DNA of 64,000 bases from a bacterium (GTDB lineage Bacteria > Bdellovibrionota > Bdellovibrionia > Bdellovibrionales > Bdellovibrionaceae): positions 310,001 to 374,000 of the forward strand of contig JAIELP010000006.1 in assembly GCA_019752925.1 (NCBI GenBank), given 5' to 3'. The notes beneath the pieces are model-generated. The model saw only the letters and a list, made by a program, of their open reading frames with translations, had not been told where the DNA came from and searched no databases. Position 1 is the stretch's first letter, and each line of letters opens with the position of its first letter. Shown here in pieces: positions 4,908 through 37,403 of this stretch. The position numbers and the translations under genes were made by a program.

Positions 4908-7421
4908 CTAGGCGGCAAAGCTCGCTTCTAGTACCGGCTTATAAGAGCTATCACGGCCACCACCACGATTCATGAATTCATTGAATTTCTCATTTTCGCG
5001 AGGAAGGCCTTCCTTTTCTATAGTCTCTTTTAATGATTCAACAGCTTTACGCTCTTCTTTGCTTTGCACTACATTCTTTTGCGCAAAAACCCATTTAGGT
5101 ACAACGATCGCAAAGGCAGTACCTTTTTCAGTTGCAGAGTTCGCATCTAATACACGAGATCCGCTTGTTCCTTCCCAAACTCTTGAGAAGAAGCCTAAGT
5201 GTGATCTAGGTATGTTAGCCATTTGTGCCTTTGCAGTAAAAGCATTGAATTTTTTTGTTTTACTGATTTCAGCAGCAGCTTCTTTGATGCCGGTACCGTT
5301 TTCAGTTCCTACTCTGTTGATAGCAACGCGAGGTACATTCAATTTTAATTTCTGGATTTCCTGTGATGCATATTTACCATCAGCGATAACTAACTCAACA
5401 CCGCCAGCTTCTAAGATAGCTGCTAAAACTTTTTGACGGTAAGTAGCAGTTTGGCCTAAAACCACATTCCATTCAGTATCAGTTGCTCCGTCCATTGCAA
5501 ACGGAACAGTTTTTATAACTAAGTATTTATCGTCAACGCCCATGTCTTGCATTAAGCCGTGTAAATACTGACCACGAGTTCCGGTTAACGCGCGTGAAGT
5601 TAAGATGTCATCAAAACCATCTGGGTCGGCTAAGATTAATACTTTTGGATTTTGGAAAGTACCACGGTAGTAACCATGATCACCTACACAAAGTGGATGG
5701 GCTTTAACATTAAAGCTGCTCGCAGGTTCAGGAGCTTTGCAATTCGGATTAGCGTTTTGTCCGTTTTTCATTTTACCGATTAAAGCTACATCGATATTTT
5801 CTTTCATCAAGCGGGCCATTTTTTCGCCAGGTCCCATATCAAACACTGCGCGAACATTTTCGTTACGCGGGCGAGCATTGAACATTTCAGTATCAGAAAC
5901 GCCTGCTGCAGGTTTTGCATCGGTCATAGCCGCTAATTTTGTTTTATCAAAATCAGCTTTTTCGCGTGTACCGATAACTACTACGTGCGCCATTCCCGAC
6001 ATGCGGTAAGCAGAAGAAACTGAAACCATGCGGTTTTTAGGAGTACCAAAATCGTAGAACGCAGGGCCGATATCCGCACGTCCGTAAACATAATCTTCGT
6101 TTTGTCTGTACTTACTTGGTTTATGGCCTGGATCTTCTTCAATCATCCAACCAACTTCTTTAGTCATTTTTTTAAGTGGAACTAAGGCGGCTTCAACTTT
6201 TTGAGGAGCTGTTGCGCTATTAGAACTTAATGACGTCGGGTGAGGAAACTCCGCAACTAACACATCATTTTCAATTTCAGAACCATCAGAAAGCTTTAAG
6301 CCTTTAAGTGAAATTGTTTTTTTTCCGTTGATTTCGATTTTAGCTAAATCGTAACCATTGATCTGAGCAGGGTGAACTAAACCGCTTTTTCCAACGCCGG
6401 CATTTGAAATGGCTAACATCGGATACCATTTTTCGATATTATCGTCTAAATCTTTTTGAGCCACTCTCAGTTTTGCACGAGCCGCATCTAACTTAGCTTG
6501 CATCGAAGCTTTGCGAGTTGGATCTTTTTCGCGGCTAGGATCAATTGTTAAGTCATTGTAAGGAATTTTGTATCCCATAGTGATGTAAATATCGTTGCCG
6601 TTTTTATCTAGAGGAATCGGCATTTCAGTATTACCACCTGTATTTTGGGCCATGAATACCGGAACTTTTACTTTTTTAGCTGCTAAATCTTCAGCTGAAT
6701 ATTTAGAACCAACTTTGCCACCGTGTTTTACGATGAAAGCGCCGATAGCATCCTGCGCAGGGCCACCGAACAATACGATCATTCTTAATGAATCTTTATT
6801 ATTACGGATAATCCAGTCGATTAATCTATTTCTCCATTCAACCATAGGACTGTTCAGGTCTTGAGCCATAAGCCAGATGCCGTTATCAGCAATCGTATTG
6901 CTGAAATCAACATTCTTGAGACCATTTTCATCTTCAGTCACTAAAGGAGCTTTGTAACCCGCGTATTGGCCTTTAATTGTGAAAGCAAAAGCATTCATAA
7001 AAGCGGCGCTGTTTTCAACACCGAAATGTGCAGCCATATCTTGTGCGCGACCACCGAAACCTGCAGTAGCAGTTCTACCGGCAGCTTCCGCGATATGCGT
7101 ACCATCTTGTCCTAAGAATAACATTTTAATGCTGTTAGGTTTTTGAATCATTCTCCAAAGAGTCGGGCCGAATGCAGGTCTGAATTTTTGTTGTCCTGTC
7201 ATTTCAATTGAAATACCCGGCATGTTAGGTTGAGAAGCAACGATATCAATCAATTCGCGTCCCATTTCTGTATTTGGATCTGGTCCCGGGTCATAGGCCC
7301 ACGGAGCTGTTAAATCTTCAACGCTGGAAACCGTTCTTGCTCCAGATGATTTGTTAAAGTGGCTGCAGCCTAACCACAGAGAGCTGGCAATGACGATACT
7401 GACGAGTAACATTTGTTTCAT
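4908..7421 (-). CDS. Secreted lipoprotein with two uracil-DNA-glycosylase-like domains
   Basis: 837-residue exported protein. The N-terminal signal ends LWLGC, so Cys19 is a likely lipid anchor, although the lipobox is not canonical. The first half has the order of motifs of UDG-superfamily enzymes: LFLGQDGTH at 101-109 (compare GQDPYH), FMNAFAFT at 141-148, a strand IVLFGGPAQDA at 215-225 (compare the LWGSHAQ strand), and PHPTSLS at 393-399 (compare HPSPLS). The second half repeats the start of the pattern: VLILADPDGFDD at 594-605, YLVIKTVPFAMDG at 633-645 and VELVIADGKYA at 675-685. A tandem duplication of the fold is therefore likely. Asp106 is kept in the first copy; the second copy looks degenerate. 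An export signal is unexpected for a base-excision fold. Shine-Dalgarno AAGGGA precedes the ATG. A glycosylase activity is not proven. Confidence 0.7.
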   Translation of the reverse strand: MKQMLLVSIVIASSLWLGCSHFNKSSGARTVSSVEDLTAPWAYDPGPDPNTEMGRELIDIVASQPNMPGISIEMTGQQKFRPAFGPTLWRMIQKPNSIKMLFLGQDGTHIAEAAGRTATAGFGGRAQDMAAHFGVENSAAFMNAFAFTIKGQYAGYKAPLVTEDENGLKNVDFSNTIADNGIWLMAQDLNSPMVEWRNRLIDWIIRNNKDSLRMIVLFGGPAQDAIGAFIVKHGGKVGSKYSAEDLAAKKVKVPVFMAQNTGGNTEMPIPLDKNGNDIYITMGYKIPYNDLTIDPSREKDPTRKASMQAKLDAARAKLRVAQKDLDDNIEKWYPMLAISNAGVGKSGLVHPAQINGYDLAKIEINGKKTISLKGLKLSDGSEIENDVLVAEFPHPTSLSSNSATAPQKVEAALVPLKKMTKEVGWMIEEDPGHKPSKYRQNEDYVYGRADIGPAFYDFGTPKNRMVSVSSAYRMSGMAHVVVIGTREKADFDKTKLAAMTDAKPAAGVSDTEMFNARPRNENVRAVFDMGPGEKMARLMKENIDVALIGKMKNGQNANPNCKAPEPASSFNVKAHPLCVGDHGYYRGTFQNPKVLILADPDGFDDILTSRALTGTRGQYLHGLMQDMGVDDKYLVIKTVPFAMDGATDTEWNVVLGQTATYRQKVLAAILEAGGVELVIADGKYASQEIQKLKLNVPRVAINRVGTENGTGIKEAAAEISKTKKFNAFTAKAQMANIPRSHLGFFSRVWEGTSGSRVLDANSATEKGTAFAIVVPKWVFAQKNVVQSKEERKAVESLKETIEKEGLPRENEKFNEFMNRGGGRDSSYKPVLEASFAA

Positions 7422-7750: not shown

Positions 7751-8662
7751 ATGAAATTAAGATTTCAACTTTTGTTGGGTGCCCTGTTTTTGTCGGGCTG
7801 TACGACTTTCAATAACGCCGCAAATATTTCTGGATTACCTGTACCGCCTGAACAAACGCTTAATGTTCATTCGCGTTTTATAGCTTCAACTTATGTTGAG
7901 GAGGCTTATGCAAAGTACTTTGCAGACGGGAATTTTTATCAACGCGTAGCTAAAATTGAAGCTGTTGCTAAACAATTGCTTTCAGTAATGCCGGACAAAG
8001 GGCACCCTAAAAGAAAACTTGTAGAGCAGTTTGTTTCTGACGCGCGCAAAGAAATTATTTATCTTGGCTCAATTCAATCTAGCGTTTCGGATAAGAGCAA
8101 TTCTTTTTTACCATCTGCTCAGTTAGATCAGTATAATGCAAAAATTCAGTCCTTAGGCCGTCTGACTCAATCTTATAAAATTATGAATCGCGCTGGGATT
8201 TACTTAACAGCTTCAGGTGTTTTTGAAGAGGATTCAAGTAATCAAGATTTTTATCTTTCAATTTTAGATCGCTCAACTTATGAAATCGAAAATGGTCTGC
8301 GTGAATTAGTCCTAGTTTACAAACCTGAAGATAAAGATGCTCAGGAAAATAACGCTAAAATGAACTATTCACGATCATTGGCACAGGATACGCGCAATAG
8401 CATTCGTAGAGTTTTAGAAGTTAAAAGTGCTGAATATAAAAAAGTAGATGCAGTTCTGGCCTCAGTTGCCAGACTTAGCAGCTCGAACTTAGCCAAAAAA
8501 CTGGTTAGAACAGTAGAATTCACAAATGCCAGAAACATTCTGAAAGCAGCAAATAATATCAATTCGGGCGATATCGAAGGTTTCCAAGACGATATGGATA
8601 CAACTATTTCTACAAAGTTTAACCTTGAATTAATTAACGAACTTATTTTGAGTACACGATAG
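7751..8662 (+). CDS. Lipoprotein of unknown function
   Basis: 303 residues with a canonical signal peptide and lipobox LSGC, so Cys17 is the lipidation site. The mature part is mostly helical by composition, with no transmembrane segment and no motif that I recognise. A GAGGA Shine-Dalgarno lies seven bases before the ATG. It is followed after 8 bases by the secreted amidohydrolase gene, whose Shine-Dalgarno (TAGGAG) overlaps this stop codon, so the two are almost certainly co-transcribed. A role as a partner or anchor of the amidohydrolase is inference from position only. Confidence 0.8.
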   Translation: MKLRFQLLLGALFLSGCTTFNNAANISGLPVPPEQTLNVHSRFIASTYVEEAYAKYFADGNFYQRVAKIEAVAKQLLSVMPDKGHPKRKLVEQFVSDARKEIIYLGSIQSSVSDKSNSFLPSAQLDQYNAKIQSLGRLTQSYKIMNRAGIYLTASGVFEEDSSNQDFYLSILDRSTYEIENGLRELVLVYKPEDKDAQENNAKMNYSRSLAQDTRNSIRRVLEVKSAEYKKVDAVLASVARLSSSNLAKKLVRTVEFTNARNILKAANNINSGDIEGFQDDMDTTISTKFNLELINELILSTR

Positions 8663-8670
8663 GAGCGGCC

Positions 8671-10839
8671 ATGAAAAACATTATTTTATTATTTGCAGCA
8701 AGTTTTATAATTATGGCACAATCCGTATCTGCGGCACCAGCAGCAGCACCTGGGGCAACAGTCGTTCCGGTAGACACAGGCTTAATTTTAATCGGTAAAA
8801 TTCCTGGGCGTTATTTTAAAGATGTTGATGCTCATTCTTATGTAATGGGCTACATCGATATTAAAAATCGTGTCATTCAAAAGTTAGCGCAGGTTAAAGA
8901 GGCTGATATTGCAGCATTTGAAAAAGCAAATGTCGGACGTAAAATTTTGAAACTAAAACGTGAAGGCCAAGCTTCTTATGATGTTATTTATCCGGGTTTA
9001 ATTAATTTACACAATCACACTAAGCAAAATAATATTCCTGTATGGGGTGACGCTAAGGGGCAGTTTGCTAACCGCTTTGAATGGCGCGACTGGCCTAACT
9101 ACAAATACTCTGTAAGTGGTAATATGAATCCATGGGTTGATTATGCCCGAGCGGTTGAATGCGCCACCTTCAGATGGTCTGAGTTAAGTGCATTGGTTCT
9201 CGGTACAACTTACTTACAAGGTCCGAGTTCATGTGTTGAAAATTTCGGTATTCAGAGAGTTGAAGATGCAGGGGCATTTGTCTCAGCTAAAGCTGCAGTA
9301 CAAGCACCTACGGATTTAGTTATGCCTATGGAGATGGAATTTGTGTGGAATACACTTGGTCCAATTATTCGTACGGGTAAAACTTATGAGTTTGCATTGG
9401 CTGAAACTATTAAAAAACACTGCCCGACAATTGCAGTAACAGAGCAGAACGTTAACAGTGCCGAAATGCTGAAAATTTTAAAAGATCAGGCTAAGTTAAC
9501 TGAACTTTGCGCGAAAGAAAACTTACCACCTAAATTTATTCGCTACGTTTACTGGATTCATCCGACAATTTCGGGACGTAAAAATTATTACGCTAATAAA
9601 AAAGTTCCACCCTCTGCCGTTATTGCTCACTTAGCTGAAGGTCGTCGTGATGACGATTACAATAAAAAAGAATATGAAGTTGTAAAAATGCTAGGACTTG
9701 ATTTACCAAAAATGAACTTCGTTCACGGAGTTGGTATTCCAAGCACAGATTTCCCAGAGTTGGCTAAAAAAGATATAGGCTTAATTTGGTCGCCGTTCTC
9801 GAATTTGATTTTATATAGTCAGACGTTAGATATCGCGAATGCGCTTAAAAGCGGCGTTACAGTAGCGATCGGTTCCGACTGGGTTCCGACCGGCACAAAA
9901 AGTGTATTAGAAGAAGTTAAGATTGCACGTAAGTACATCTTAAGAGACATGGACAAAGAAGGATTAATGGATGTGTTTACCGGCAAAACCGGTAAAGTTG
10001 AAAAGATGGACGAAGAGCTTTTCAAAATGATGACTGAAAATCCTGCTAAAATGATCAATCACTTTGAAATTAAAAAAGCAGCAGCGGTGACGAAGGCCAA
10101 TCCATCTGGTTATACTGAAAGTGCAGTGGGAACTATCGCTGAAGGTGCAATGGGAAGTGTGATTATTGCTTCAATGCAAGATGCAAATCCATATACAAAC
10201 TTAGTTGAAAAAACCGATGAAAAAAATATCAACTTAGTTGTTGTGGACGGTAAAGCAGTTTATGGAAATAAATCTTATTTGGATGCTCTAGGATATAATG
10301 ACCAAACTTACGAAGTCTTGCCAGTAGATTCTGCTGAGCACTCAAGTTTACAGGTTAATACTGAAATTAAAGCCCCTGAAGATAAAACTCCAGAGATCAA
10401 ATTACAGTTCTTAGCACAGTTGATTAAAAGCTTTACGCAGAAGTTTGATCCGGTGGTTAAGTGTGAAGGTTTCAGTGATGCAAAAGCTTTAGTAACAACT
10501 AATTCAGTAGCTGCAGATGCAGATTTAACTAATTTTAGTAACGTAACAGGTATCAATCTAGATAAAGTTAAAGATATTACTAAGTTGATTGCGATCAATT
10601 TAATGACTCAAAACCGAAACAAAATTGACCCAGTTGAGGGTAAGCCTGCGTTTGCGCTTAAGTATTTTCCATCTTTATATTCATGTAATGATGAAAATCA
10701 TGTTAATCGCACACAAAACTTCATTAAATTAGATGGTAGCAAAGATGAGCTGCAAACAAACCGTGAAATCCGCGAGTCGCTGATTACAAAATACAAATTA
10801 GGGCGTGCACCTAAGCAATTAGCAGAAAAATATAAGTAG
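8671..10839 (+). CDS. Secreted amidohydrolase-superfamily protein
   Basis: 722 residues with a signal peptide (about 1-22, ending SAA). The metal-dependent amidohydrolase TIM barrel is shown by HNH at 114-116, a ligand His320 (AHLAEG), His352 (FVHGVG) and Asp403 (IGSDW). The order and spacing resemble the deaminase/imidazolonepropionase branch that hydrolyses C-N bonds in heterocycles. About 120 residues between the first and second ligands are unusually rich in Trp and charged residues, and about 190 residues extend past the barrel. The substrate is unknown. Its periplasmic location and its neighbour, a UDG-like lipoprotein, would fit nucleobase processing, but that is speculation. Confidence 0.8.
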   Translation: MKNIILLFAASFIIMAQSVSAAPAAAPGATVVPVDTGLILIGKIPGRYFKDVDAHSYVMGYIDIKNRVIQKLAQVKEADIAAFEKANVGRKILKLKREGQASYDVIYPGLINLHNHTKQNNIPVWGDAKGQFANRFEWRDWPNYKYSVSGNMNPWVDYARAVECATFRWSELSALVLGTTYLQGPSSCVENFGIQRVEDAGAFVSAKAAVQAPTDLVMPMEMEFVWNTLGPIIRTGKTYEFALAETIKKHCPTIAVTEQNVNSAEMLKILKDQAKLTELCAKENLPPKFIRYVYWIHPTISGRKNYYANKKVPPSAVIAHLAEGRRDDDYNKKEYEVVKMLGLDLPKMNFVHGVGIPSTDFPELAKKDIGLIWSPFSNLILYSQTLDIANALKSGVTVAIGSDWVPTGTKSVLEEVKIARKYILRDMDKEGLMDVFTGKTGKVEKMDEELFKMMTENPAKMINHFEIKKAAAVTKANPSGYTESAVGTIAEGAMGSVIIASMQDANPYTNLVEKTDEKNINLVVVDGKAVYGNKSYLDALGYNDQTYEVLPVDSAEHSSLQVNTEIKAPEDKTPEIKLQFLAQLIKSFTQKFDPVVKCEGFSDAKALVTTNSVAADADLTNFSNVTGINLDKVKDITKLIAINLMTQNRNKIDPVEGKPAFALKYFPSLYSCNDENHVNRTQNFIKLDGSKDELQTNREIRESLITKYKLGRAPKQLAEKYK

Positions 10840-19079: not shown

Positions 19080-19616
19080 ATATGAATTATATTCAGATTA
19101 TGAATGATAAAAGTCATGTTGTATTCGACCAAAGTCAGTCAGACCACAAGCTGTAGTGCCCAAGGCAACGATCAGGTTCTTATAGAATGCGTAAAACTCG
19201 ACCAAAGTCCTTTAAATGACCTCATATGTCGAGAGCAATTGCGTCATTTATCAGACGCTGCATGAATAACCAAAAAGCTCAAATCTATGAAATCTTAAAT
19301 GAAATTATATAACATCGCGAAAACCTTGAAAGCTTTGCATTTTCTTCATGACGATCGCAATTTTTCACTCTGAAAAATTAATTTTTTTAAATTTTTATGA
19401 AATTATTTTTTTCTTAAGAATCGCAACTGTTGCTGAAAATCGAATCAACAAATGTGATGCGTATAGTACACACCACCTGATGGCGAGAGGCGAGCGGAAA
19501 ACATTAAGGTGATTATGCTTTATTTTTTTAAGTTGCGTTTAAACCAGACCATAATTACGATTTGTTTCATATAGGTTAAACAATAAAACAATTTGCACTT
19601 AACGAAAGGACGCAAA
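19080..19616. promoter_or_regulatory. 537-base divergent intergenic region with a direct repeat and an OMP promoter
   Basis: Upstream region of rnr (minus) and of the first outer-membrane protein (plus). It contains a 12-base direct repeat TCGACCAAAGTC at 19125-19136 and 19198-19209, and a promoter-like pair near the OMP gene listed separately. AT-rich tracts fill 19370-19420. I see no tRNA, no clear small-RNA terminator and no credible ORF. Confidence 0.4.
19533..19561 (+). promoter_or_regulatory. Candidate sigma70-type promoter of the first OMP gene
   Basis: TTGCGT (19533-19538), a 17-base spacer and TACGAT (19556-19561). A start near 19568 would give a leader of about 50 bases before the Shine-Dalgarno AAAGGA (19605-19610) and ATG 19617. 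Confidence 0.4.
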
Positions 19617-20732
19617 ATGAAACAACTATTAGTAATCGCAGTAGCTTTAACTGCAATTAACGCTCAAGCTTCACGTGCTCGTGTTGCCGCTTTACAGTCT
19701 CCAGCTCACCTCGTAGACACTCAAACTGTTTACACTAACCCATCGGACATTTTAAGAATTTCTGGTGATTATGTAACTTTTGAATCGGGAGCTACTCAGA
19801 GTACTTTGGTTCAAACTGCTGAAATGGCAAATGCTGAAGGCATGATCGTTCGCACTATGGGCGACGCAAAATTAGGTCTATCTTTAGGTCACCAATCTAA
19901 AAATGCTTCGTCTTGGGGTTTAAGAGGTGCTACGCCGGTAACTGCTGCTCTTAAAGTTAATCAGCAAAATCCAATTGAGTTCACTTACGGTATGAAATCT
20001 GGTGACATTAACTGGGCTGGTACTTTGGTATACTCTAACTACAACAACAAACAGGCGGCTGTGGGTGTTTTAGAAAAAGAATCTTCTATGGGCTTACGTT
20101 TTGGTGCTAACTCGGGCGCTTGGAATGCGTCTTTAGGTTTAGGTTTAACTAATACTGCACAATTAAATACAGGTAACAAATTCACAGGTGCTTTAGGATT
20201 GTCTTTAGCTGGTGGTTACCAGTGGGAAACAATGTACTTTAACGCAGGTTTAACTAGTGCAGGTGCTAAAGAAGAAACAACTACTGGTACAGAAGCATTA
20301 AAGTTGAACTCTCAATCAATCACTTTAGGCGTAACTAACGTACACAAAAAAGATGGTAACGAGCTATTCTATGGTGCTTCTTTAACTCAAACTGAAGACA
20401 AGGCTAACATCTTATCTGCTGGTGATAACAAAGTTACTTCTTTGAAATTGCCTCTTATTATTGGATTTGAAGCTGAAGCGGCTTCTTGGTTAACTTTCCG
20501 TTCTTCAGTAACTCAAACAGTTTTAATCAACCAATCTAAAACTGTAAATGCTGCTGGTACAACGACTGCTGAAACTGATCCAGGTGCAAATACTACAACT
20601 GTAGCATTTGGTGCTGGTTTGAAATTCAACAAATTAACCATCGACGGTACAATCTCTGGCTTAACAGCTGGTGGTCAAACTATCGGAACTAACACATTGT
20701 TATCACAAGTTGGTGTTGGTTACTGGTTCTAA
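19617..20732 (+). CDS. Outer-membrane beta-barrel protein, first of three tandem paralogues
   Basis: 371 residues with a signal peptide (about 1-18, ending NAQA). The mature part shows repeated amphipathic strands and ends in an aromatic residue (VGYWF), as BamA-targeted barrels do. It shares with the next two genes the motif pattern near the N-terminus (ARVAAL...YTNPSDIL), KDGNELFYGA, and a C-terminal TIDGT...LLSQVGVGY. The start is ATG 19617 with Shine-Dalgarno AAAGGA; an upstream in-frame start has none. It is codon-regular and has its own promoter and terminator, which suggests strong expression. Porin function is inferred. Confidence 0.85.
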   Translation: MKQLLVIAVALTAINAQASRARVAALQSPAHLVDTQTVYTNPSDILRISGDYVTFESGATQSTLVQTAEMANAEGMIVRTMGDAKLGLSLGHQSKNASSWGLRGATPVTAALKVNQQNPIEFTYGMKSGDINWAGTLVYSNYNNKQAAVGVLEKESSMGLRFGANSGAWNASLGLGLTNTAQLNTGNKFTGALGLSLAGGYQWETMYFNAGLTSAGAKEETTTGTEALKLNSQSITLGVTNVHKKDGNELFYGASLTQTEDKANILSAGDNKVTSLKLPLIIGFEAEAASWLTFRSSVTQTVLINQSKTVNAAGTTTAETDPGANTTTVAFGAGLKFNKLTIDGTISGLTAGGQTIGTNTLLSQVGVGYWF

Positions 20733-20757
20733 TTTTTCGTAAGAAAAATTGAAACAC

Positions 20758-20788
20758 AAAAAAGCCTTGGTTTCCCAAGGCTTTTTTT
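20758..20788 (+). terminator. Intrinsic terminator after the first OMP gene
   Basis: 13-bp stem (20758-20770 and 20775-20787) with loop TTTC and a T7 tract. A second small hairpin (AATTTTTC/GAAAAATT, 20731-20750) overlaps the stop codon just upstream. Confidence 0.9.
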
Positions 20789-20872
20789 ATTTGTAAATTT
20801 CGATTTTAAAATTTCTACGCAAAGTTCTTTTGCAAGATTCTGTTAAGCCTTGGCTTGTCATTTAAATAAAGT

Positions 20873-20901
20873 TTGTCAGTCCTATTTCAGATCGTTATCC
20901 T
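20873..20901 (+). promoter_or_regulatory. Candidate sigma70-type promoter of the second OMP gene
   Basis: TTGTCA (20873-20878), 17 bases, TATCCT (20896-20901), about 35 bases before ATG 20937. The spacing equals that of the candidate upstream of the first OMP gene. Confidence 0.45.
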
Positions 20902-20936
20902 TTGTAAAATTCAAACCTACTTAAGAGGAATATCAA

Positions 20937-22058
20937 ATGAATAAAATCATGTTAGTTATTATCACCTTGTTATCAGCGCAAGCTTTTGCAACTAAGGCTC
21001 GTATTGCTTCAATGGGAAATTCTTTTCATATCACTGATGCCCAAGGTATTTACTCAAATGCCATGCGAGTGGTTCAGTTCAGTAATATAGTTATGATCGA
21101 AAGTGGTTTAACAGCCGCAACCTCTACCACTAATAATGCTGAAGGCGGAGTTTTCTTTAACGTAGGCGAAAACGAGCGTATGGCGCTTACTTTGGGTAAC
21201 AACAATGACCTCGTACAAAATGGCCGTCGTTTTATTAATTCAATCGTAGGTGCCAATACATACGAAACACCACAAAATATGGTTCATGTTTTTTACGGCT
21301 CTAAGGGTGGCAGTGTTCCTTATGGCGTTGGTCTATTTTACTCTAATAAAGACGATAAACTTAACAGTTTAACTGAGTCTTCTTCGGGTCTTTTAGCTTC
21401 ATTTAAGTTTGGATCTTTCGGAATATTCGGTAGTTATTCATTGGTTAACTCTGTAGAGGCAGCGGCTAACCGCAAATTTGACGGTGGCGGAGCATTTAAG
21501 TTAGCTGGCCGCTATATGAAAGACGATATTTACTACGGAGTAGATTTCGGTTCTTGGATCAGTAAATCTTCAACTGGCGCAGTTGAAAATGAAGCTTATG
21601 GCAATAAATCTATGTCTTTCAGGGTTATTCATTCAATCAAAAAAGATGGTAATGAATTATTTTACGGTGCCGGTGTTATGTCGAATGCAATCGATTGTAA
21701 AACTAAAGGTTCGGCAACTTGCACAACTAAGTTTTCATCACTTACATTCCCTATCATTATCGGAACTGAAATCAATGCGGCAGATTGGATCACATTACGT
21801 GGTACAATTACACAATCCTTACCAATGGATACAGTTAAAGATGAAATCGGTCTTCCGGCAGCAGCTACTTCTGGTATTGCCGGTACAACTGGAGCGCTTA
21901 CGGAATTTGCCGGTCAAGCCAATACAACAACTTTGGCTATGGGCGCAGGTATCAAATTCAATAAAATCACAATCGATGGAACTATGACGACTGCAACAAC
22001 TCAAACTGTGAATACAACAGTGTTGCTTAGCCAAGTAGGTTTAACGTATAACTACTAA
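20937..22058 (+). CDS. Outer-membrane beta-barrel protein, second tandem paralogue
   Basis: 373 residues, signal peptide about 1-18 (ending AFA). Closest in this window to the third gene: shared N-terminal pattern TKAR(I/L)xSxGNSF, a FDGxG segment, Cys pair in the middle (IDCKTKGSATC) and the C-terminal TIDGTMTTATTQTVN motif. It ends in an aromatic residue (LTYNY). Shine-Dalgarno AAGAGGA is about eight bases before the ATG. A surface-exposed disulphide loop is likely from the Cys pair, which the first paralogue lacks. Confidence 0.85.
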   Translation: MNKIMLVIITLLSAQAFATKARIASMGNSFHITDAQGIYSNAMRVVQFSNIVMIESGLTAATSTTNNAEGGVFFNVGENERMALTLGNNNDLVQNGRRFINSIVGANTYETPQNMVHVFYGSKGGSVPYGVGLFYSNKDDKLNSLTESSSGLLASFKFGSFGIFGSYSLVNSVEAAANRKFDGGGAFKLAGRYMKDDIYYGVDFGSWISKSSTGAVENEAYGNKSMSFRVIHSIKKDGNELFYGAGVMSNAIDCKTKGSATCTTKFSSLTFPIIIGTEINAADWITLRGTITQSLPMDTVKDEIGLPAAATSGIAGTTGALTEFAGQANTTTLAMGAGIKFNKITIDGTMTTATTQTVNTTVLLSQVGLTYNY

Positions 22059-22082
22059 TAAGTTAGTTAATTAGTATTTTTC

Positions 22083-22112
22083 AGAAAAGCTGACTTAAAA
22101 GTCGGCTTTTCT
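22083..22112 (+). terminator. Intrinsic terminator between the second and third OMP genes
   Basis: 12-bp stem with one T-G pair (22083-22094 and 22101-22112), loop TTAAAA, T-rich 3' arm (TTTTCTTATTT). It ends five bases before the ATG of the third paralogue, so it also forms that gene's leader. Confidence 0.75.
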
Positions 22113-22117
22113 TATTT

Positions 22118-23245
22118 ATGGGTAGGGTGTTAGTGTTTCGTTTAGTTTTAAGTTTAGTTATATTATATTCGTTGCCGGTGATGGCAACCAAAGCAAGATT
22201 GCTGTCGCTAGGTAATTCATTTCAATTTACGGACCCTCAAAGTGTTTATCAGAAGCCTATCGATTTAATTTACATAGATAACTTAGTGAGTGTTGAATCC
22301 GGCCTAACGAATGCAACTACTTTAAACAATGGCGCGGAAGTATTTGTATCTCATCTTTTAAACGATAAAGCTCAAATTGGCTTATCATTGGGTCATCAGG
22401 ATCAAGCAGTCGTAACTACTCGAAGCTTTATGAACGCAGTACTAGGGGCTGCTACGTACGAATTAGCTCAAAATCCTGTGCATATGTTTTACGGAGTTCG
22501 CGATAGTTTAACTTCATACGTGTTTGGTGCTTTTTATTCATACAAAAACGACAGATTGAACGCATTGACTGAATCTTCAGCGGGTTTGTCAGTTGGTGTT
22601 GAGTGGGGTAATTGGCAGTTTAATACAGTGTATACAGCCGTTAATGCTGTTGAAGTTGCCGGCAATCAGAGATTCGACGGAAAAGGCTATTGGAACAGTT
22701 CTGTTTCATATCAGTTGGATGATACTTTATTTAGATTCAGCTACTTAAATACAGATGCTAAATCAACCACAGGCAATACCGAAAATGAGTTTCACCGCAT
22801 TGAAACTGTTACTTTAGGATTAGTTGATAGCAACGTTAAAGAAGATAATAACTTTTTTTGGGGAGTTGAGGTTGTATCTACAGCCGCCAAGTGCCGCATT
22901 CGTGCATCGGCTGATTGCAACAAGCTATATACCAACACAACATTGCCGTTTTTGCTGGGAATTGAAGCGCAGGCAAGTGACTGGCTTATTTTGCGTTCAA
23001 CAGTAAAACAAATACTGTTAGTCGGTATTACCAAAGATGAAGTCCCATATCCCGCAGGAACTTTCAATAATACAACGGGTGCTGTACAGAACGTTTCAGC
23101 CATCAGTAACACAACGGCTGTAACTTTAGGTGCGGGCATTAAGTTTAATAAGTTTACCGTAGATGGAACTATGACCACGGCAACAAATCAAACTGTTAAC
23201 TTCACGAGTTTGCTTTCGCAAGTTGGTATTAGTTATCAATACTAA
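22118..23245 (+). CDS. Outer-membrane beta-barrel protein, third tandem paralogue
   Basis: Up to 375 residues from ATG 22118, with a signal peptide ending PVMA and a C-terminal SYQY. It shares the TKARLLSLGNSF start, the FDGKG segment, the mid-protein Cys pair (AKCRIRASADC) and the TVDGTMTTATNQTVN end with the second paralogue. ATG 22118 has no Shine-Dalgarno, since a terminator stem lies directly before it. A GTG at 22133 has AGGG five bases upstream and would give a cleaner signal peptide, so it may be the true start. No promoter is visible, so expression may depend on read-through. Confidence 0.8.
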   Translation: MGRVLVFRLVLSLVILYSLPVMATKARLLSLGNSFQFTDPQSVYQKPIDLIYIDNLVSVESGLTNATTLNNGAEVFVSHLLNDKAQIGLSLGHQDQAVVTTRSFMNAVLGAATYELAQNPVHMFYGVRDSLTSYVFGAFYSYKNDRLNALTESSAGLSVGVEWGNWQFNTVYTAVNAVEVAGNQRFDGKGYWNSSVSYQLDDTLFRFSYLNTDAKSTTGNTENEFHRIETVTLGLVDSNVKEDNNFFWGVEVVSTAAKCRIRASADCNKLYTNTTLPFLLGIEAQASDWLILRSTVKQILLVGITKDEVPYPAGTFNNTTGAVQNVSAISNTTAVTLGAGIKFNKFTVDGTMTTATNQTVNFTSLLSQVGISYQY

Positions 23246-29085: not shown

Positions 29086-31722
29086 TTATAATTGTTCTTC
29101 TTGTTTTGGGTTTAAATGATTTTCGGCAGATTTACGGCCAAATTTATAAAATAAGGTCGGTGTGATAATAATATCTAAAAGGGTAGAGCTGAATAGGCCA
29201 CCGACTATCACCACAGCCACTGGATGTAAAATTTCACTGCCCGGTTGGCCTTTCGCAAACACGAGTGGTAGTAATGCGAGCGAAGCCACACAGGCGGTCA
29301 TCATAACAGGAACCAGTCTTTCCTGAGAGCCTCGAATGATCATTTCTTTGGAGAAAGATTCTTTTTCATATTTCATCAGATGCAGGTAGTGGGAAATCAT
29401 CATAATAGCATTGCGTGAAGCCACTCCGCAGAGAGTAATAAAACCCACAAGGCTGGCTACGGTAATACTGCGATCGGTAATAAACAGTAAAATAATGCCA
29501 CCGATAAAAGCCAGCGGAATAGTGGCCATGATCTGTGCGGTGATGGCTTTTGATTTAAAATGAGCAAATAAAACTAGCGCAATGCCAAAAAGTGAAATCA
29601 AACCAAATATCAATATTTTTTTAGTAGCCGCCTGTTGGCTTTCAAACTGGCCTCCGTAAACGACGTAGTAACCTTCAGGTAATTGAACTTTTTGTTTTAC
29701 CTTTTCTTGAACTTCTTGAATAAGGCTACCGAGGTCGCGTCCGCTGACATTGGCGCTGATCACAATACGTCTTTGGTTGTTTTCGCGGTTAATTTCATTG
29801 GGGCCAGAGCTCTCATAAACATCTGCCACATCTTCTAATAAAACTTTACGCCCGTTCGGCAAAACAGTTAAAACTGTTTTTTGCATTTTTTCTATGGAAG
29901 CTCGGGAGTTTTCATCAAACTGGAAAAAGACATCATAGATTTTTTCATCCTGTAAAATCTGTGAAACCACTTCGCCGTTAAACGCCACTTCAAGTAAATG
30001 GGTTATTTCTCCGGCGCTCAGTCCGAATGCGGCAGCTTCTTCGCGTAAAACCTGAATTTTGAGTTGTGGTATAAGGCCTTGTTGTTCAATACGAAGATCC
30101 ACCAGTCCTTGGGTATCTTTAATGGCTTCATTTAATTCAATAGATTTTTCCCGCAGAGTAGTTAGGTCGGGCCCGAAAATTTTAATAGCTACTGCAGCAC
30201 TAACGCCTGAAAGCATATGGTCAATTAAATGTGAAATCGGTTGGCCCACGCTGATGCCTGAGCCCTTGAGTTCTGCTTTAAGATTGTCGCGCATTTCGTT
30301 AATGACCACTTCGCGTTTACGACCATCAGGTTTAAAATCAATATCGATTTCACTGACATTTACGCCCATAGCATGTTCGTCTAATTCAGCGCGGCCGGTG
30401 CGTCGAGATACAGATTTAATTTCAGGAGTTTTTAATATAATTTCTTCGGCCTTTGTGCCGATTGCATTGGATTCCGTTAAGCTTATGCCAGGTGGGTTAA
30501 TTACCGTAACCATGGCGGTGCCTTCGTTAAACTGGGGTAAAAAGTCGCGCCCCATAAATGGAATTAGTGATAATGCAAACACGAGTAAAGAAGCGCTTGA
30601 TAATAAAACCACGTTGGCTTTTGGTAAAGCCCAGTTCAGAATTTTTTGATCTAAATTTTTTAAATAACTCACAAACTTAGTTTCACCATGTTCTTTGAGA
30701 TTATTTTTTAAGAAGTAAGAGCATAGAACCGGTGTTAAGGTGAGTGATACGATTAACGAAGCAATTAAAGCTGTTAAGTAGGCAATTCCCAATGGGGCAA
30801 ATAAACGCCCTTCTAATCCCGTTAGGTTAAACAGAGGTAAAAACACCAACGCGATAATGACTGTGGCTAATACGATTGAGTTGCGAACTTCGCTGGAAGC
30901 TTCAAAAACAATTTTTAAAACAGATTTGGGATTGAGGCTTTCAGCATTTTCGCGCAAACGGCGATAAATATTTTCCACATCTACGATGGAGTCATCAACT
31001 AATTCTCCTATGGCAATAGCGAGTCCGCCTAAAGTCATGGTGTTTACGCTTAATCCGAAAATTTTAAATACAATGGCTGTAAATAAAAACGAAACAGGAA
31101 TGGCCGTTAAAGTTATAACCGACATTCTGAGGTTGGCTAAAAATATAAATAAAATAATAAATACTAAAATAGTACCGAATTTTAATTTACCTTTAATTCC
31201 ATCAATTGAGTTTTGAATAAAGTTAGCTTGTTTAAATACGTCAGGGTTAACTATCACACCTTTAGGTAAGCTAGGCTTGAGCTCGTCGATAGCTTTTTGA
31301 ATGGCATTCGTTATGGTAACGGTGTCGGCACCTGGTTGTTTTTGAATGGTCATCACAACAGAGGGATGGGTATTAAAGCTGCCATCGCCGCGTTTAAGGC
31401 GGGGAGCTTCTTTTACCTCGGCAATATCTTTTACAAGTACGGGCTGCCCAAAGTGCAATCCGATCAATGTTTTTTTAATATCATCAATTCCATGCACCAC
31501 ACCGATATTACGTACAAGCAATTCCTGTCCATCTTTTTCTAAAAAACCACCTGTAGTGTTTTGGCTGATCTGCGAAAGCTTTGTGTTGATGTCTTCAATG
31601 GAAAGTTGATAGCGGTTAACTTTTTCTGAAGAAACTAAAATTTGATACTGTTTAAGGCCCCCGCCAATAGAAATACTTGCGCCACTCCGTTGATCGTCAT
31701 TAAACGTGGGCGCAAAACCCAC
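29086..31722 (-). pseudogene. Heavy-metal RND efflux pump, C-terminal part (frameshifted)
   Basis: Reading frame for about 860 residues of a CusA/CzcA-family inner-membrane pump. True homology starts near 31676 with IGGGLKQYQILV, which continues the upstream fragment; the first 15 or so codons, from the ATG at 31722, are out of frame with it and are spurious. TM4 has the family signature AIAIGELVDDSIVDVEN, with acidic residues for proton relay. The periplasmic porter loops, TM7-TM12 and the C-terminal FGRKSAEN end are complete. Apart from the frameshift I see no other damage, which suggests either a recent mutation or an error in the sequence. Confidence 0.85.
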
Positions 31723-32204
31723 TCAGCTAAATTGCGAAGTTCTAAAGGACTTACTTCATTGTTTTCTGAAGTGATGGCAATTTGTTGGATTTGTCCCATT
31801 AAAGATCCAACGGGCCCCATAGTAGGTTTAATATCTTTAGGAAGTTTTTCCTGAGAAAGATTGAGTTTTTCTTGTACTAACTGACGGTTACGATAAATAT
31901 CTGTTCCCCATTCAAACTCAACATAAATAACCGACAATCCAATCCCAGATTGCGAGCGCATGCGCTCTACGCCAGCGATACCATTCAGATAACTTTCGAT
32001 GGGGTATGTTACGCGGCTTTCAACCTCTTCGGGCGCCATGCCGTGGGATTCTGTAATAATTGTAACAGTTGGTTTAGTGATATCAGGAAATACATCTATC
32101 GGCAGATTTAAAGCCGAGATGCTGCCATAAACTATAATAAATGCAGCCACAGCCAGAACAAAAAGGCGTTTGTTAAGAGCTAAGCGAATAATCGAATTTA
32201 ACAT
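31635..32204 (-). pseudogene. Heavy-metal RND efflux pump, N-terminal part (frameshifted)
   Basis: The first 178 or so residues of the same pump: TM1 at about 13-33, then DVFPDITKPTV, GMAPEEVESRVTYPIE and LRPRLMTINGVAQV, all standard for HME-RND proteins. After GVAQV the frame is lost and 11 unrelated residues precede a stop at 31635. Shine-Dalgarno GGAG lies before the ATG at 32204. One base removed or missing near 31671-31676 explains the break: a -1 shift restores GVAQVISIGGGLKQYQ. Confidence 0.85.
31671..31676 (-). other. Frameshift site in the RND pump gene
   Basis: On the minus strand the sequence GTATTT replaces the expected GTAATTT or similar. Reading GTA ATT TCT ATT GGC would join both fragments. 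No slippery heptamer (X-XXY-YYZ) or downstream pseudoknot is evident, so programmed frameshifting is unlikely. Confidence 0.75.
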
Positions 32205-33020: not shown

Positions 33021-34070
33021 TTATAAGTAATCCGGTTTAACAAATTCCGGCGTGAATGGGTACAGATAGCTTTTGTAAGCTTTAATAGATGGTGATCCAG
33101 AAGCTTTATAAATTTCATCCCATAAGTAAGCTAATAAATAGCTAGAGCGTGCCATTTCTTTTACAATCAAGCTGTCCATTTTTTTGATAGCTTCTGAAGG
33201 TGGTCTACGTTTTGCCGGAGTTTTAAGACTCATACCTTTTTCAATTTTAATTAAAGAAGGAGTAATGATTGGATCCTGCTTTAGAACGTCTTTAATTTCT
33301 GATGCTGAGACATCACTTAGGGCACGCATATTTTCAATAACTGAATTTTTTTGTGTAAAAGACTGAGAAGTCCAAGATTTTGCTTTTTTAACAATTTGGT
33401 TTACTAGATCAGGCCCGAATTGCCCCACCACGCTGTCTTCATAGTAAGAGTGAATTCCTCCTTGGTTAGCAGCATAGCCGTCATGATCAGATGTATTATG
33501 GAAAGGTTGGCTATTATCGCCAACAAAGTGACCCATTAAACCCATATTAACCATCATTTGGAAAAAGGCCTTATTGTAAGGTAGTTGATCGTCTTGTTCT
33601 TCTTTGTAGTCTTTTGGTGCCGCATTTTCTTTAATTTTTTTTCCGGCTTCAATAGCTAAGCGATAAAACTGATCCGTACGCCACCAGTTAGAGCCTACTT
33701 CGTCGGGTACTGAAAAAAGTGTTTGTGCTTGATTGGTTTGATTAGGTTTTCCGGTATAAGTTTCAACGATTTTTTTGTAATCTAATGGAATTTCAGAAAT
33801 TTTTAAACCTAGTTTTTCCGCATTGATGTAGTGTCCCGGATCTCCTAGTTTACGGGCGTCGCCCGATAAAGATTTCCAATAAATATCAGGAATATTACAA
33901 AGATGACCCATGACATGGGGTTTGTTCATTAAATACTCTTTAAGTTCAGGAGATTTCACAAGGTATACAGCCGCCTCACAAATGGCAGCGTGGCCGCGCC
34001 CGCCCCAAGCTAAAGCTTCAGCTGAGTATTGTAAGCCTATTAATAGAATAAGCAGCGTGATTTTTTTCAT
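33021..34070 (-). CDS. Secreted S1/P1-type nuclease (zinc-dependent)
   Basis: 349 residues. A signal peptide ends ALA, leaving Trp22 as the mature N-terminus, as this family needs: W22 and H27 (AWGGRGH) bind zinc. Further ligands appear in DPGHYINAE and MGHFVGDNSQPFH, then SDHDGY. S1/P1 enzymes cut single-stranded DNA and RNA to 5'-nucleotides and also remove 3'-phosphates; the phospholipase C branch shares the fold, so a lipase role is a weaker option. A strong AAGGAGA Shine-Dalgarno precedes the ATG. The gene lies 14 bases downstream of the nucleoside ABC permease gene on the same strand. Confidence 0.8.
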   Translation of the reverse strand: MKKITLLILLIGLQYSAEALAWGGRGHAAICEAAVYLVKSPELKEYLMNKPHVMGHLCNIPDIYWKSLSGDARKLGDPGHYINAEKLGLKISEIPLDYKKIVETYTGKPNQTNQAQTLFSVPDEVGSNWWRTDQFYRLAIEAGKKIKENAAPKDYKEEQDDQLPYNKAFFQMMVNMGLMGHFVGDNSQPFHNTSDHDGYAANQGGIHSYYEDSVVGQFGPDLVNQIVKKAKSWTSQSFTQKNSVIENMRALSDVSASEIKDVLKQDPIITPSLIKIEKGMSLKTPAKRRPPSEAIKKMDSLIVKEMARSSYLLAYLWDEIYKASGSPSIKAYKSYLYPFTPEFVKPDYL

Positions 34071-34084
34071 TTTATCTCCTTGGC

Positions 34085-34948
34085 TTACTTCAGTTCAGCC
34101 GGTGGGTTAAATTTTATTTTTAATAATAATAAAGCAATCAAAGTAGCTAAGTAAGGAATCATTTGGATAAATTCTGCAGCTATGTATTCCGAAACAGCAG
34201 CATTCGACTGCAATTGAATTTGCATAGCTTCACAGAATCCGAAAAATAAACAAACGATAAGTGCGCGTGGATAATTCCATCCGGCAAAAATGAGGGCGGC
34301 CAGCGCAATGAATCCGCGACCGGCACTCATTAACGGTGAATAGGCCGATGCCAAGGCAGTTGAAAGTACAGCGCCACCTAGGCCAGTTACAAAAGCCGAT
34401 ATAGTTAATGACTGCCATTGGCGCTTAGTAGCGCTAATACCTACAGATTGCAGCGCTAATTTTTTTTCGCCGGCAAACTTCATTTGAAGTCCCCAGATTG
34501 TTTTTTCAGAAAGCCAATAGCTCATGCCCACTGTAAGTACCAGTACAATATAGGGTAGGTAAGCATTGTAAGCGGGTAATTCTACAGAGGGTGTTGAACC
34601 TGTAGAGTTAAAAATTGTTTTACTGATAATGGGAATAATTCCCATAGCCAGCAAATTCATTCCAGTGCCGATAACAATAGAGTTCGCTTTAAACTTTAAA
34701 ATCAGCACACAGAATATTTGTGCAAATAGAGCGGTTACTACGGCGGCAATAAAATAAGCCAGAGTTACAGATTTAGTCATATAAGCAGCGCTGGCCGCAG
34801 TAAAAGCACCTACTAACAAATAAGATTCCAGGGCAATTTGAGCCACGCCAGATTTTTCAGAGAAGTAAGCGCCGGTAGCTGCAAAAAATAAAGGTAAACT
34901 TAAGCGAAGTGTTGCTAAGATTAAAAGAATATAAGCGGATTCCATCAT
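34085..34948 (-). CDS. ABC transporter permease, nucleoside type (YufQ/NupQ-like)
   Basis: 287 residues, about eight hydrophobic helices, of the BPD_transp_2 family used with BmpA-type binding proteins. The family pattern GxGFxALAALIFAGWNYPRAL is recognisable (key residues, about 215-235). It is the second permease of the importer. Its ATG shares one base with the stop of the first permease gene (TAATG), so translation is coupled. No Walker motifs and no signal peptide. Confidence 0.85.
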   Translation of the reverse strand: MMESAYILLILATLRLSLPLFFAATGAYFSEKSGVAQIALESYLLVGAFTAASAAYMTKSVTLAYFIAAVVTALFAQIFCVLILKFKANSIVIGTGMNLLAMGIIPIISKTIFNSTGSTPSVELPAYNAYLPYIVLVLTVGMSYWLSEKTIWGLQMKFAGEKKLALQSVGISATKRQWQSLTISAFVTGLGGAVLSTALASAYSPLMSAGRGFIALAALIFAGWNYPRALIVCLFFGFCEAMQIQLQSNAAVSEYIAAEFIQMIPYLATLIALLLLKIKFNPPAELK

Positions 34949-36006
34949 TATTTGTCCGCTTTCTTTTCAGCTTTTAGGCTAGGAGTGAAAATAAAATAAG
35001 AAGCAGCTACTGAAAAAATAATTATAGCCTGAAGAACTCTTGAAAAGTCCCGGGTTAAAAAATTAGTTTCTAAATCTAAATCAGAGGCCCCTTTGTGTAA
35101 ACAGGACATTAAGAATGCTGAGCCAATGATGCCGATGAAATTTTGCTGTGCTAATAAGGCTACTGCAATACCTAAAAAGCCGTATTGGGGCGAGAAGCCT
35201 ATTTTATACTGGAAGGTATTACCAATAACTTCTGTTAAGCCGACAAAAGCTGAAAACATACCGGCTAAGCCTAAGCTTAAGCCTAAAATTTTAGTACTGC
35301 TGATGCCCAGACGTGCGGACGCATGGGGATTGTTTCCGTAGGCTCTTATTTGGTAACCGATCAGTGTTTTCTTTTCCAAAACGTAAAGAATTATGCAAGA
35401 AGCTACTGCGACGAGTAAGAAGGAGCTAACAGCTGAATTTTCAAAATAGGTTTTAAGAAAATCATTTTGCATAAACTGAAAAGCCGCATGGACAGGAATT
35501 GTTTCCGGGTTCTGAGAATTAGGATTTTGCAAATGATTAACTGTTATCCATGTTGTAATAGCTGCAAATATAAAATTCAGCATAATAGCAACAACGACTT
35601 CATGCGCTTGTTTAAATAATTTAAAGAAGGCAATGACTAGAGCTGAGAGCGCCCCGCAGATTAAAGTTGTTGATAATATAAATATAATTGAAAAAGCCAC
35701 TGAAAAAGAATTATCAAAAGGTACCAGTGTAGAGCCGAGATAGGCGGCGACTAAAGCCGACAACAATATTTGCCCTTCGCTGCCGATGTGAAACAAACCG
35801 GATTTCATAGGAATAGCAAATGACAGTCCTGAAAAAATTAAACAGGTCGTGTAAAATAATGTAAGTCCGAAATCAAATTTAGAATTAAAAAAACTGGTCG
35901 CCAGCACTTTGAATACGTGAAAAGGACTTTCCTGAAAAAATAGAGCCAGCAAACACGATAAGGTAATTCCGATAATTAAACCCAACCAAGGTGCAAATTT
36001 TTTCAT
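34948..36006 (-). CDS. ABC transporter permease, nucleoside type (YufP/NupP-like)
   Basis: 352 residues with about nine or ten hydrophobic helices. GLFHIGSEGQILLSALVAAY is the typical early motif of this permease class (position about 70-90), and YGFLGIAVALLA follows near 275. It pairs with the 34085-34948 permease. The stop codon of the ATPase gene overlaps its start (ATGA, 4 bases). Substrate by family: purine and pyrimidine nucleosides, or related small solutes. Confidence 0.85.
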   Translation of the reverse strand: MKKFAPWLGLIIGITLSCLLALFFQESPFHVFKVLATSFFNSKFDFGLTLFYTTCLIFSGLSFAIPMKSGLFHIGSEGQILLSALVAAYLGSTLVPFDNSFSVAFSIIFILSTTLICGALSALVIAFFKLFKQAHEVVVAIMLNFIFAAITTWITVNHLQNPNSQNPETIPVHAAFQFMQNDFLKTYFENSAVSSFLLVAVASCIILYVLEKKTLIGYQIRAYGNNPHASARLGISSTKILGLSLGLAGMFSAFVGLTEVIGNTFQYKIGFSPQYGFLGIAVALLAQQNFIGIIGSAFLMSCLHKGASDLDLETNFLTRDFSRVLQAIIIFSVAASYFIFTPSLKAEKKADK

Positions 36007-37403
36007 ATTTCACCAGCCATATATAGACCAATTTCTTGTTCGTTCAGCTCATCTTTTTTGAAAGGACCGAATATTTTATTTTTATTTAAAATAATAAAAC
36101 GGTCTGAGAGAAATAAGGCTTCATCGAGATCTGATGATACCAGTACAATGGACTTATTATTTTTTGCGTAGCTTAAAAGTGAGTTGTGTATTTTTTCTTG
36201 GGCACCTAAGTCTACGCCGCGAGTAGGGTGGGCAGCTAAAAGTATTTCAGGTTCACCTAAGAGCTCTCGTCCCACCACAAACTTCTGTTGGTTACCACCA
36301 GAAAATTCAGAAAGCGGCTTATTAATATCCTGCGGGCGAACATCCCACTCTATTACAAGTTTTTTTGCAGCATCAGTCAGTGCTTTAGAGTTAATAACAC
36401 CATTACTGATGAATTTATTTTTATGTTTTAGCAATAAATGTTCACGTAAATCGAGATTTTCAAAAACACTCAATTTAATCCGGTCTTCAGTGATGTCGCC
36501 GTAGCTCATACAATTTTCATTGAATTTTTTTAAAAGCTTTTCAATCAGTTGGTTTTGTCCGTTACCTTCAATACCGATAACGCCGAAAATCTCACATTTT
36601 TTTAGTTCAATATCAGTATTCGGAATTTTAATATTAATCTTTTCGTCTATATTATTGGCTTGAGGTTTGTTTTTGTTTACGCGGCGACCAATCATGAGTT
36701 CAGCCATTTGCTCCACAGTAATATCAGTTTTAAGATGACTGGAAACAAGCTGTCCCTGACGAAGTACGCTGACATAATCAGCCACAAACTTAATTTCGTT
36801 CAATTTGTGCGAAATAATAATTATAGTTTTTCCTTCAGACTTAAGCTGCAAAATAAATTTCAGCAGCTCATCAGACTCTTGAGGCGTTAGCACCGCAGTT
36901 GGCTCATCAAAAATAATAATGTCGGGTTCTTGCATCAGGGCTTTTAAAATTTCTAGCCTTTGTTGCTCGCCAACACTTAAATGTTTAACTAGCTTGTGTA
37001 AATCAATCTGCCAGCCGAAGCGTTTTAATAAAAATTGTGCGCGTGAATAAACATCGTCGGTATTTTTTAAATACAAGCTAAAAAAATTAGAGCTGGCGCT
37101 TAAAATTAAATTGTCTAAGGCGGTAAGTTCTTCCGCCAATACGAAATGTTGATGTATAAAGGCAATTTTATTTTTAAAGGCATCCTGAGCTGATTGTGGC
37201 GAGTACCAATTGCCATTTAAAAATATTTCACCTGAAGTTACAGGAGTTACTCCACCTAAAAGTTTTACTAATGTGGATTTTCCAGCTCCGTTTTCGCCAA
37301 TGATAGCGTGAATAGTGGATTTTTTAATGGATAGAGAAACATCACGGCATGAAACGCTGTCGCCATAGATCTTAGTGATGTTTCTAAATTCAATATAAGA
37401 CAT
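36003..37403 (-). CDS. ABC transporter ATP-binding protein, nucleoside type (YufO/NupO-like)
   Basis: 466 residues with two fused nucleotide-binding domains. The first has Walker A GENGAGKS near 36-43, signature LSVGEQQR and Walker B IIIFDEPTAVL. The second has a degenerate Walker A (GIEGNGQNQL, no GKS) but an intact SGGNQQK signature, usual for this family. It is about 40 residues shorter than typical members; the loss is at the start of the second domain. Its ATG shares one base with the bmpA stop. Confidence 0.88.
   Translation of the reverse strand: MSYIEFRNITKIYGDSVSCRDVSLSIKKSTIHAIIGENGAGKSTLVKLLGGVTPVTSGEIFLNGNWYSPQSAQDAFKNKIAFIHQHFVLAEELTALDNLILSASSNFFSLYLKNTDDVYSRAQFLLKRFGWQIDLHKLVKHLSVGEQQRLEILKALMQEPDIIIFDEPTAVLTPQESDELLKFILQLKSEGKTIIIISHKLNEIKFVADYVSVLRQGQLVSSHLKTDITVEQMAELMIGRRVNKNKPQANNIDEKINIKIPNTDIELKKCEIFGVIGIEGNGQNQLIEKLLKKFNENCMSYGDITEDRIKLSVFENLDLREHLLLKHKNKFISNGVINSKALTDAAKKLVIEWDVRPQDINKPLSEFSGGNQQKFVVGRELLGEPEILLAAHPTRGVDLGAQEKIHNSLLSYAKNNKSIVLVSSDLDEALFLSDRFIILNKNKIFGPFKKDELNEQEIGLYMAGEI

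Follow-up and report, generated by a model that had tools for sequence, protein, structure and literature searches.

Enzymes of the uracil-DNA glycosylase (UDG) superfamily are known as intracellular genome guardians. A member of the superfamily, BdiUNG (Blr0248 of Bradyrhizobium diazoefficiens), is represented by PDB entry 5gn2 and three further entries, and its chain in 5gn2 is a single domain of 272 residues. According to PMC8307549, BdiUng-like enzymes belong with the UDGs of wider specificity, whose substrates may extend from uracil derivatives to hypoxanthine and xanthine. Family 4 UDG and UdgX carry an Fe-S cluster, according to PMC8307549 and PMC10359453. The roles of motif A, of the base-binding Asn and of motif B in UDGs are described in PMC10359453 and PMC10776899; the latter also states that an aromatic residue at the end of motif A stacks on the base, and that UDGs share no universally conserved site.

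Bdellovibrio bacteriovorus cuts the DNA of its prey early and, by an estimate given in PMC7925074, rebuilds about 70% of it into its own, which would leave room for enzymes that attack foreign DNA at the level of its bases. This work on prey-DNA reuse may concern bacteria that lack the UDG-like protein described below. Judged by titles and the beginnings of abstracts, the open-licence PMC literature yielded neither an exported UDG nor a UDG of Bdellovibrio, and an exported two-domain form with a rebuilt second domain, as well as its linkage to an exported amidohydrolase, were not found in the open-licence PMC literature searched. The UDG superfamily and the BdiUNG class are already known; the exported tandem form and its amidohydrolase linkage, which did not turn up, are apparently new.

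Two UDG-like domains in one chain

The window, i.e., the whole stretch of 64,000 nucleotides of Bdellovibrionaceae DNA that was analysed, carries a gene for a UDG-like protein with the following features, listed from the N-terminus onwards.

4908–7421, minus strand: two-domain UDG-like protein of 837 aa, predicted to be exported (ORF, fold and homology)
7368–7421, minus strand: signal sequence, residues 1–18, followed by Cys19 as the probable lipid-attachment residue (hydrophobic 12-mer 2.51; lipobox WLGC, non-canonical at −3)
6102–7304, minus strand: domain 1, residues 40–440, BdiUNG-type UDG fold, catalytic residues kept
7095–7112, minus strand: motif A of domain 1, GQDGTH, residues 104–109, with the catalytic acid D106 (D or E in 66/67 homologues)
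6993–6995, minus strand: Asn143, the base-binding position (N in 66/67 homologues)
6234–6245, minus strand: motif B of domain 1, PHPT, residues 393–396, with the catalytic His394 (H in 65/67, P395 in 67/67)
5082–5864, minus strand: domain 2, residues 520–780, UDG fold with a rebuilt pocket
5607–5630, minus strand: motif A counterpart of domain 2, ADPDGFDD, residues 598–605 (P, Q or S at the acid position; D599 in 67/67)
5511–5513, minus strand: Lys637, which replaces the base-binding Asn (K or R in 63/67)
5205–5213, minus strand: IPR, residues 737–739, at the place of motif B as aligned by eye (R739 in 61/67)

The gene is present as a single copy in the source genome, a 2.74 Mb assembly of 14 contigs. 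Its coding strand is the minus strand, and a plus-strand reading of 4908–7421 holds 51 stops; the initial annotation had placed the gene correctly and left its strand unstated. The UDG motifs that it had named are all present (LGQDGTH at 103–109, FMNAFAFT at 141–148, VLFGGPAQ at 216–223 and PHPTSLS at 393–399), and the recurrence that it had seen about 490 residues further on is confirmed, with GQD at 104–106 matching ADP at 598–600 at an offset of 494 residues. Its proposal of two UDG-like domains likewise agrees with the predicted structure of the full-length protein, which gives a high-confidence UDG fold, of the alpha/beta/alpha kind, for both halves. Both halves match solved UDG structures among the Foldseek matches listed, and no better match to a non-UDG family was found among the 50 matches listed, re-examined from Foldseek's best 1000 chains. 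Entry 5gn2 is the closest by sequence for both domains and the closest by fold for domain 2 (among the matches listed, one row per entry), while a profile search with domain 1 and another with domain 2 each retrieved BdiUNG independently.

The two domains are also recognisably related to each other, as their profiles align with an hhalign E-value of 1.6e-7 and a score of 57.3, against 15.5 with the columns of domain 2 reversed and a maximum of 20.6 over 60 column shuffles. A leader of the form [YF]DxGP stands ahead of each domain, at residues 43–47 and 527–531, and is clear in L104, a compact family member. In the profile libraries, the Pfam UDG model stays under its cut-off on the window protein (E 0.0012, 19.4 bits versus 24.3, residues 591–720), PF03167 is matched at E ≤ 0.1 by 25 of 32 aligned members, NCBIfam and PHROGs give the window protein weak unrelated matches only, and PADLOC gives it no match.

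For comparison across the family, 103 homologous ORFs were reduced to 76 distinct ones, of which 67 spanned the profile and nine partial ones were left out; L023 was retained among the 67 though it is cut at its start. A tree of the 134 domain sequences from these 67 proteins separates the 67 first from the 67 second domains by a branch with 100/100 support. Since the two domains lie on opposite sides of this branch, the duplication predates the sampled family. The inner forks of the tree are weak because it rests on 130 columns. Branches of domain 1 are mostly shorter by eye, and mean column identity is 36% for domain 1 (insertion included) and 39% for domain 2.

Domain 1 shares the GQD motif, the Asn and the HP motif with family 1 Ung, of which the source genome has its own, separate copy (L105:859–1527). 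This Ung is 222 aa long, reads GQDPYH and HPSPLS and, unlike the window protein, shows no export signal by eye. In contrast to family 4 UDG and UdgX, domain 1 is free of cysteine, and the UdgX loop KRRIH is absent from the window protein. The stacking aromatic at the end of motif A is missing, its place being taken by Ala118; the 67 homologues have F (30), A (20) or G (17) at this position, and BdiUNG aligns a Leu there. Two members depart from the catalytic set: L104 (genome G014; 525 aa) has both domains and has lost the Asn and His of domain 1, so that it may be inactive by nature and of use for comparison, whereas in L019 the acid is gone and, in the alignment, the His as well.

Domain 2 is a different case. 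It lacks the set of acid, Asn and His and has another conserved set instead, therefore it is not a second ordinary UDG. Arg586, Gly587, Asp599, Gln618 and Pro640 are invariant in the 67 homologues, and from this pattern of conservation domain 2 reads as a rebuilt copy under strong constraint. The idea of tandem UDG-like copies is refined to this extent: the fold is duplicated, the catalytic residues are not. The window protein differs from BdiUNG accordingly: it has two domains in one putatively exported chain where BdiUNG has one, its domain 2 is without the catalytic residues, and its domain 1, being of the long form, has a long insertion. It may serve as a naturally occurring case of UDG duplication with rebuilding of the second copy.

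Export signal and distribution

Export of the UDG-like protein is well supported by its N-terminal sequence and those of its homologues: a hydrophobicity test picks out a signal-like stretch in 62 of the 67, compared with 25 of the window's 48 ORFs. Of the five homologues below the threshold, four look like signal sequences by eye and the fifth, L023, is truncated at a contig end. A looser version of the test on the fetched neighbourhoods is passed by 62 of 71 UDG-like ORFs and by 235 of 504 others. The test is weak because the control ORFs include many exported and membrane proteins, and inspection of the N-termini therefore weighs more. As a rough measure of export, cysteines in the mature part are even in number in 44 of 67 members and odd in 23; without the 15 cysteine-free members the count becomes 29 versus 23.

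The initial annotation had called the protein an exported lipoprotein, and the second half of this description is likely for the window protein's own genus only. A bacterial lipobox reads [LVI][ASTVI][GAS]C. With Trp at −3 the WLGC of the window protein is degenerate and falls outside a relaxed pattern, which is matched by 14 of 67 homologues. A Cys does stand at the equivalent place in four long-form relatives from the same genus (L002, L031, L032 and L033). Besides C19 the window protein has two cysteines, both ahead of domain 2; L002 and L031 share this pair with the window protein, whereas L032 and L033 lack both residues, which hints at a disulfide.

Among 368 genomes of the phylum Bdellovibrionota 80 carry the family, and among 99 near relatives 28 do, the source genome being counted both times. 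The best sampled genus of the window's family (g6) has the gene in none of its 19 genomes in the near-relative set. Two forms can be told apart. The window protein is of the long form, which is mostly about 780–905 aa and has a large extra segment at about residues 255–385; the short form is mostly about 640–760 aa and is without this insertion ahead of motif B. No relatives were found in plasmids and phages by tblastn, or in viral contigs. A scan of genome contigs with patterns from the window protein only gave 13 loci, 12 of them titled as Bdellovibrionota groups and one as a Proteobacteria bacterium; the titles were metagenome assemblies of Pseudobdellovibrio, Bdellovibrio, Bdellovibrionaceae, Halobacteriovorax, Halobacteriovoraceae, Bacteriovoracaceae and Oligoflexia.

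A recurrent amidohydrolase neighbour

Two further genes of the window concern the surroundings of the UDG-like gene, the amidohydrolase gene being two genes away from it.

7751–8662, plus strand: predicted exported lipoprotein of 303 aa (LSGC), with relatives between the UDG-like and amidohydrolase genes in 6/73 neighbourhoods
8671–10839, plus strand: predicted exported amidohydrolase of the nucleobase/nucleoside-deaminase clade, the recurrent neighbour

Short flanks, many of about 1.5 kb, had suggested that the UDG-like gene has no conserved neighbour, and wider neighbourhoods overturned this by revealing the amidohydrolase. These wider neighbourhoods comprise 73 loci, of which 71 hold a recognised UDG-like ORF, and represent 71 of the 80 genomes that carry the family. 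All-against-all clustering put the amidohydrolase in 18 of the 73 loci, making it the most frequent neighbour, ahead of the next clusters at nine; a separate search of 59 relatives had matched it in 14 genomes, several times adjoining the UDG-like gene. The arrangement varies. The two frames abut and are codirectional in L166 and L176, lie 10 bases apart and codirectional in L167, are divergent with 197–296 bases between them in L111, L131 and L168, and are 6.6 kb apart in L164, while in L114 a UDG-like fragment at the edge of a contig adjoins the amidohydrolase of G005. A relative of the 303-aa lipoprotein separates the two genes in L109, L138, L144, L145, L148 and L178. A small protein of about 180 aa recurs in L144, L145, L148, L150 and L152, five loci that come from a single family of genomes (f12), and in four of them it separates the UDG-like gene from its partners.

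At the phylum scale, a profile search at E ≤ 1e-60, a threshold set to avoid the wider superfamily (G156 is borderline at 2.3e-61), found the amidohydrolase in 39 of 368 genomes. Of these 39, 35 also carry the UDG-like gene, while among the 329 genomes without the amidohydrolase 45 do (Fisher p 2e-22, with related genomes not being independent). The two genes lie less than 8 kb apart in 20 of the 35 genomes with both, and less than 2.5 kb apart in 19; pairing within 8 kb spans eight of the 12 families with both genes. In the remaining 15 genomes they are on different contigs (14) or about 199 kb apart (G347). Four genomes (G003, G032, G140 and G209) have the amidohydrolase without the UDG-like gene. 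Five genomes with the UDG-like gene were left unclassified as to form; the amidohydrolase occurs in 26 of 28 short-form genomes, the two exceptions being 56% and 67% complete, but in only 9 of 47 long-form genomes, the source genome included.

The amidohydrolase has HxH (114, 116), HLxEG (320–324), H352, SxxSN (374–378) and GSDW (401–404), and each of these places is conserved in 17 or all 18 of the copies, of which one is truncated. We take HxH, HxxE, H, SN and D to be the metal-binding and catalytic set of the nucleobase-deaminase amidohydrolases. With guanine deaminase and the TRZ-ATZ amidohydrolases it has HxH, HLxEG, H, SxxSN and GSD in common, and its nearest named relatives of solved structure by profile are MTA/SAH deaminase, atrazine chlorohydrolase, guanine deaminase and 8-oxoguanine deaminase, while the window copy alone matched a single solved chain, 2imr (E 0.0091). 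It differs from that group in being apparently exported, mostly about 520–840 aa long (one ORF 1115) and, in the five of 18 copies tested, short of all NCBIfam equivalog cut-offs; the best equivalog scores were 37.7 bits versus 540 for the window copy and 86.2 versus 540 for the copy in L110. Fifteen of the 18 copies pass the hydrophobicity test, the others being one at 1.76, one truncated and one with an uncertain start.

Candidate functions and alternatives

Chances are about even, in our judgement from sequence comparison and predicted structure, that the UDG-like protein works outside the cytoplasm as an N-glycosylase of its superfamily, in an old tandem form found across Bdellovibrionota, with foreign DNA or nucleotides as its target. 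Domain 1 would act in the periplasm or at the cell surface, where it would release a base from foreign or prey DNA or from fragments of such DNA; candidates for this base are uracil, hypoxanthine, xanthine and related deaminated or modified bases. Domain 2 would not excise uracil, and its Arg and Lys residues at the former catalytic positions may hold the nucleic-acid backbone or position the substrate. The amidohydrolase, where present, would act on the same bases, either by deaminating the freed base or by making the base that domain 1 removes; hypoxanthine and xanthine are the deamination products of adenine and guanine, which would fit a deaminase partner. Bases of prey or environmental DNA would thereby be salvaged, or that DNA weakened, and the cell's own uracil repair would be left to the separate Ung without an export signal. 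The initial annotation had wavered between action on foreign or prey DNA and a binding scaffold derived from the fold; the exported deaminase-like neighbour speaks more for a base-acting enzyme than for a scaffold only, though it is no proof.

Several observations speak against this N-glycosylase reading. Ala118 stands where a stacking aromatic is expected, although BdiUNG too aligns a residue other than an aromatic, and L104 and L019 have lost catalytic residues of domain 1. As to the pairing with the amidohydrolase, the long form, which is that of the window protein, seldom has the partner, the genes are not near each other in 15 of the 35 genomes with both, and four genomes have the amidohydrolase alone. 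Furthermore, prey DNA normally contains little uracil. It is only tentatively, and with doubt outweighing belief, that we put forward a wider proposal from the same sequences and models: Bdellovibrionota may run a dedicated extracytoplasmic base-excision pathway, in which an exported tandem glycosylase, an exported base deaminase and sometimes a lipoprotein would take prey or environmental DNA apart base by base, so that UDG chemistry would serve feeding or attack instead of repair, domain 2 having acquired a new pocket with a conserved Asp/Arg/Lys set. If true, base-excision chemistry would be turned outward, phylum-wide, and the UDG-like protein would be a candidate for foreign-DNA processing beyond nucleases in this phylum.

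The protein could instead bind nucleotides, DNA or glycans, or have a structural role, without catalysis, the domain 1 residues being kept for ligand binding. Such a role would suit the clear rebuilding of domain 2, the Ala118 of domain 1, an exported location that is unusual for a repair enzyme and the probable membrane anchor in the window protein's genus. We nevertheless consider it unlikely, though worth serious attention, as hardly any of the 67 diverged homologues departs from the combined acid, Asn and His of domain 1, and the hydrolase to which the gene is linked has its metal-binding set intact.

The identity of that hydrolase lends itself to another account. The clade of guanine deaminase, 5'-deoxyadenosine deaminase and chlorohydrolase, in which it falls, acts on free bases, nucleosides and triazines, and the two proteins could form a catabolic or detoxifying pair, the UDG-like one being an exported N-glycosidase for a small molecule such as a nucleoside, a nucleotide sugar or a nucleoside antibiotic, with a pocket that the extra segment of the long form could reshape. 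The close structural matches are DNA glycosylases, however, with no small-molecule enzyme of the UDG fold among the matches listed, and we rate this account as decidedly improbable.

A guard of incoming DNA, which would screen or mark deaminated bases in the periplasm or attack modified phage DNA, would agree with UDG chemistry at a location outside the cytoplasm. Against it stand the lack of a PADLOC match for the window protein, the lack of phage or viral-contig relatives and a neighbourhood in which no other cluster exceeds 9/73 loci, and we think such a guard very improbable indeed. The fold and profile results have disposed of a chance motif match or a mis-called ORF, to which the Pfam score of the window protein alone might point, and we give such an artefact practically no credence.

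Elsewhere in the window, 33021–38377 (minus strand) holds four genes for a PnrA/BMP-type ABC transporter and, after them, one for an exported protein that resembles S1/P1 nuclease (Pfam E 7.2e-5, under the cut-off), and is a possible nucleic-acid salvage operon. The gene at 47133–47930 (minus strand) encodes an endonuclease/exonuclease/phosphatase family protein whose N-terminus looks like an export signal. A CzcA/CusA-type RND transporter-like gene, recognised by eye, lies at 29086–32204 (minus strand) in two overlapping frames of 878 and 189 aa, and its split reflects either an assembly error or a broken gene. Finally, three similar-looking exported proteins of about 370 aa each stand in tandem at 19593–23245 (plus strand) and are possibly outer-membrane barrels.
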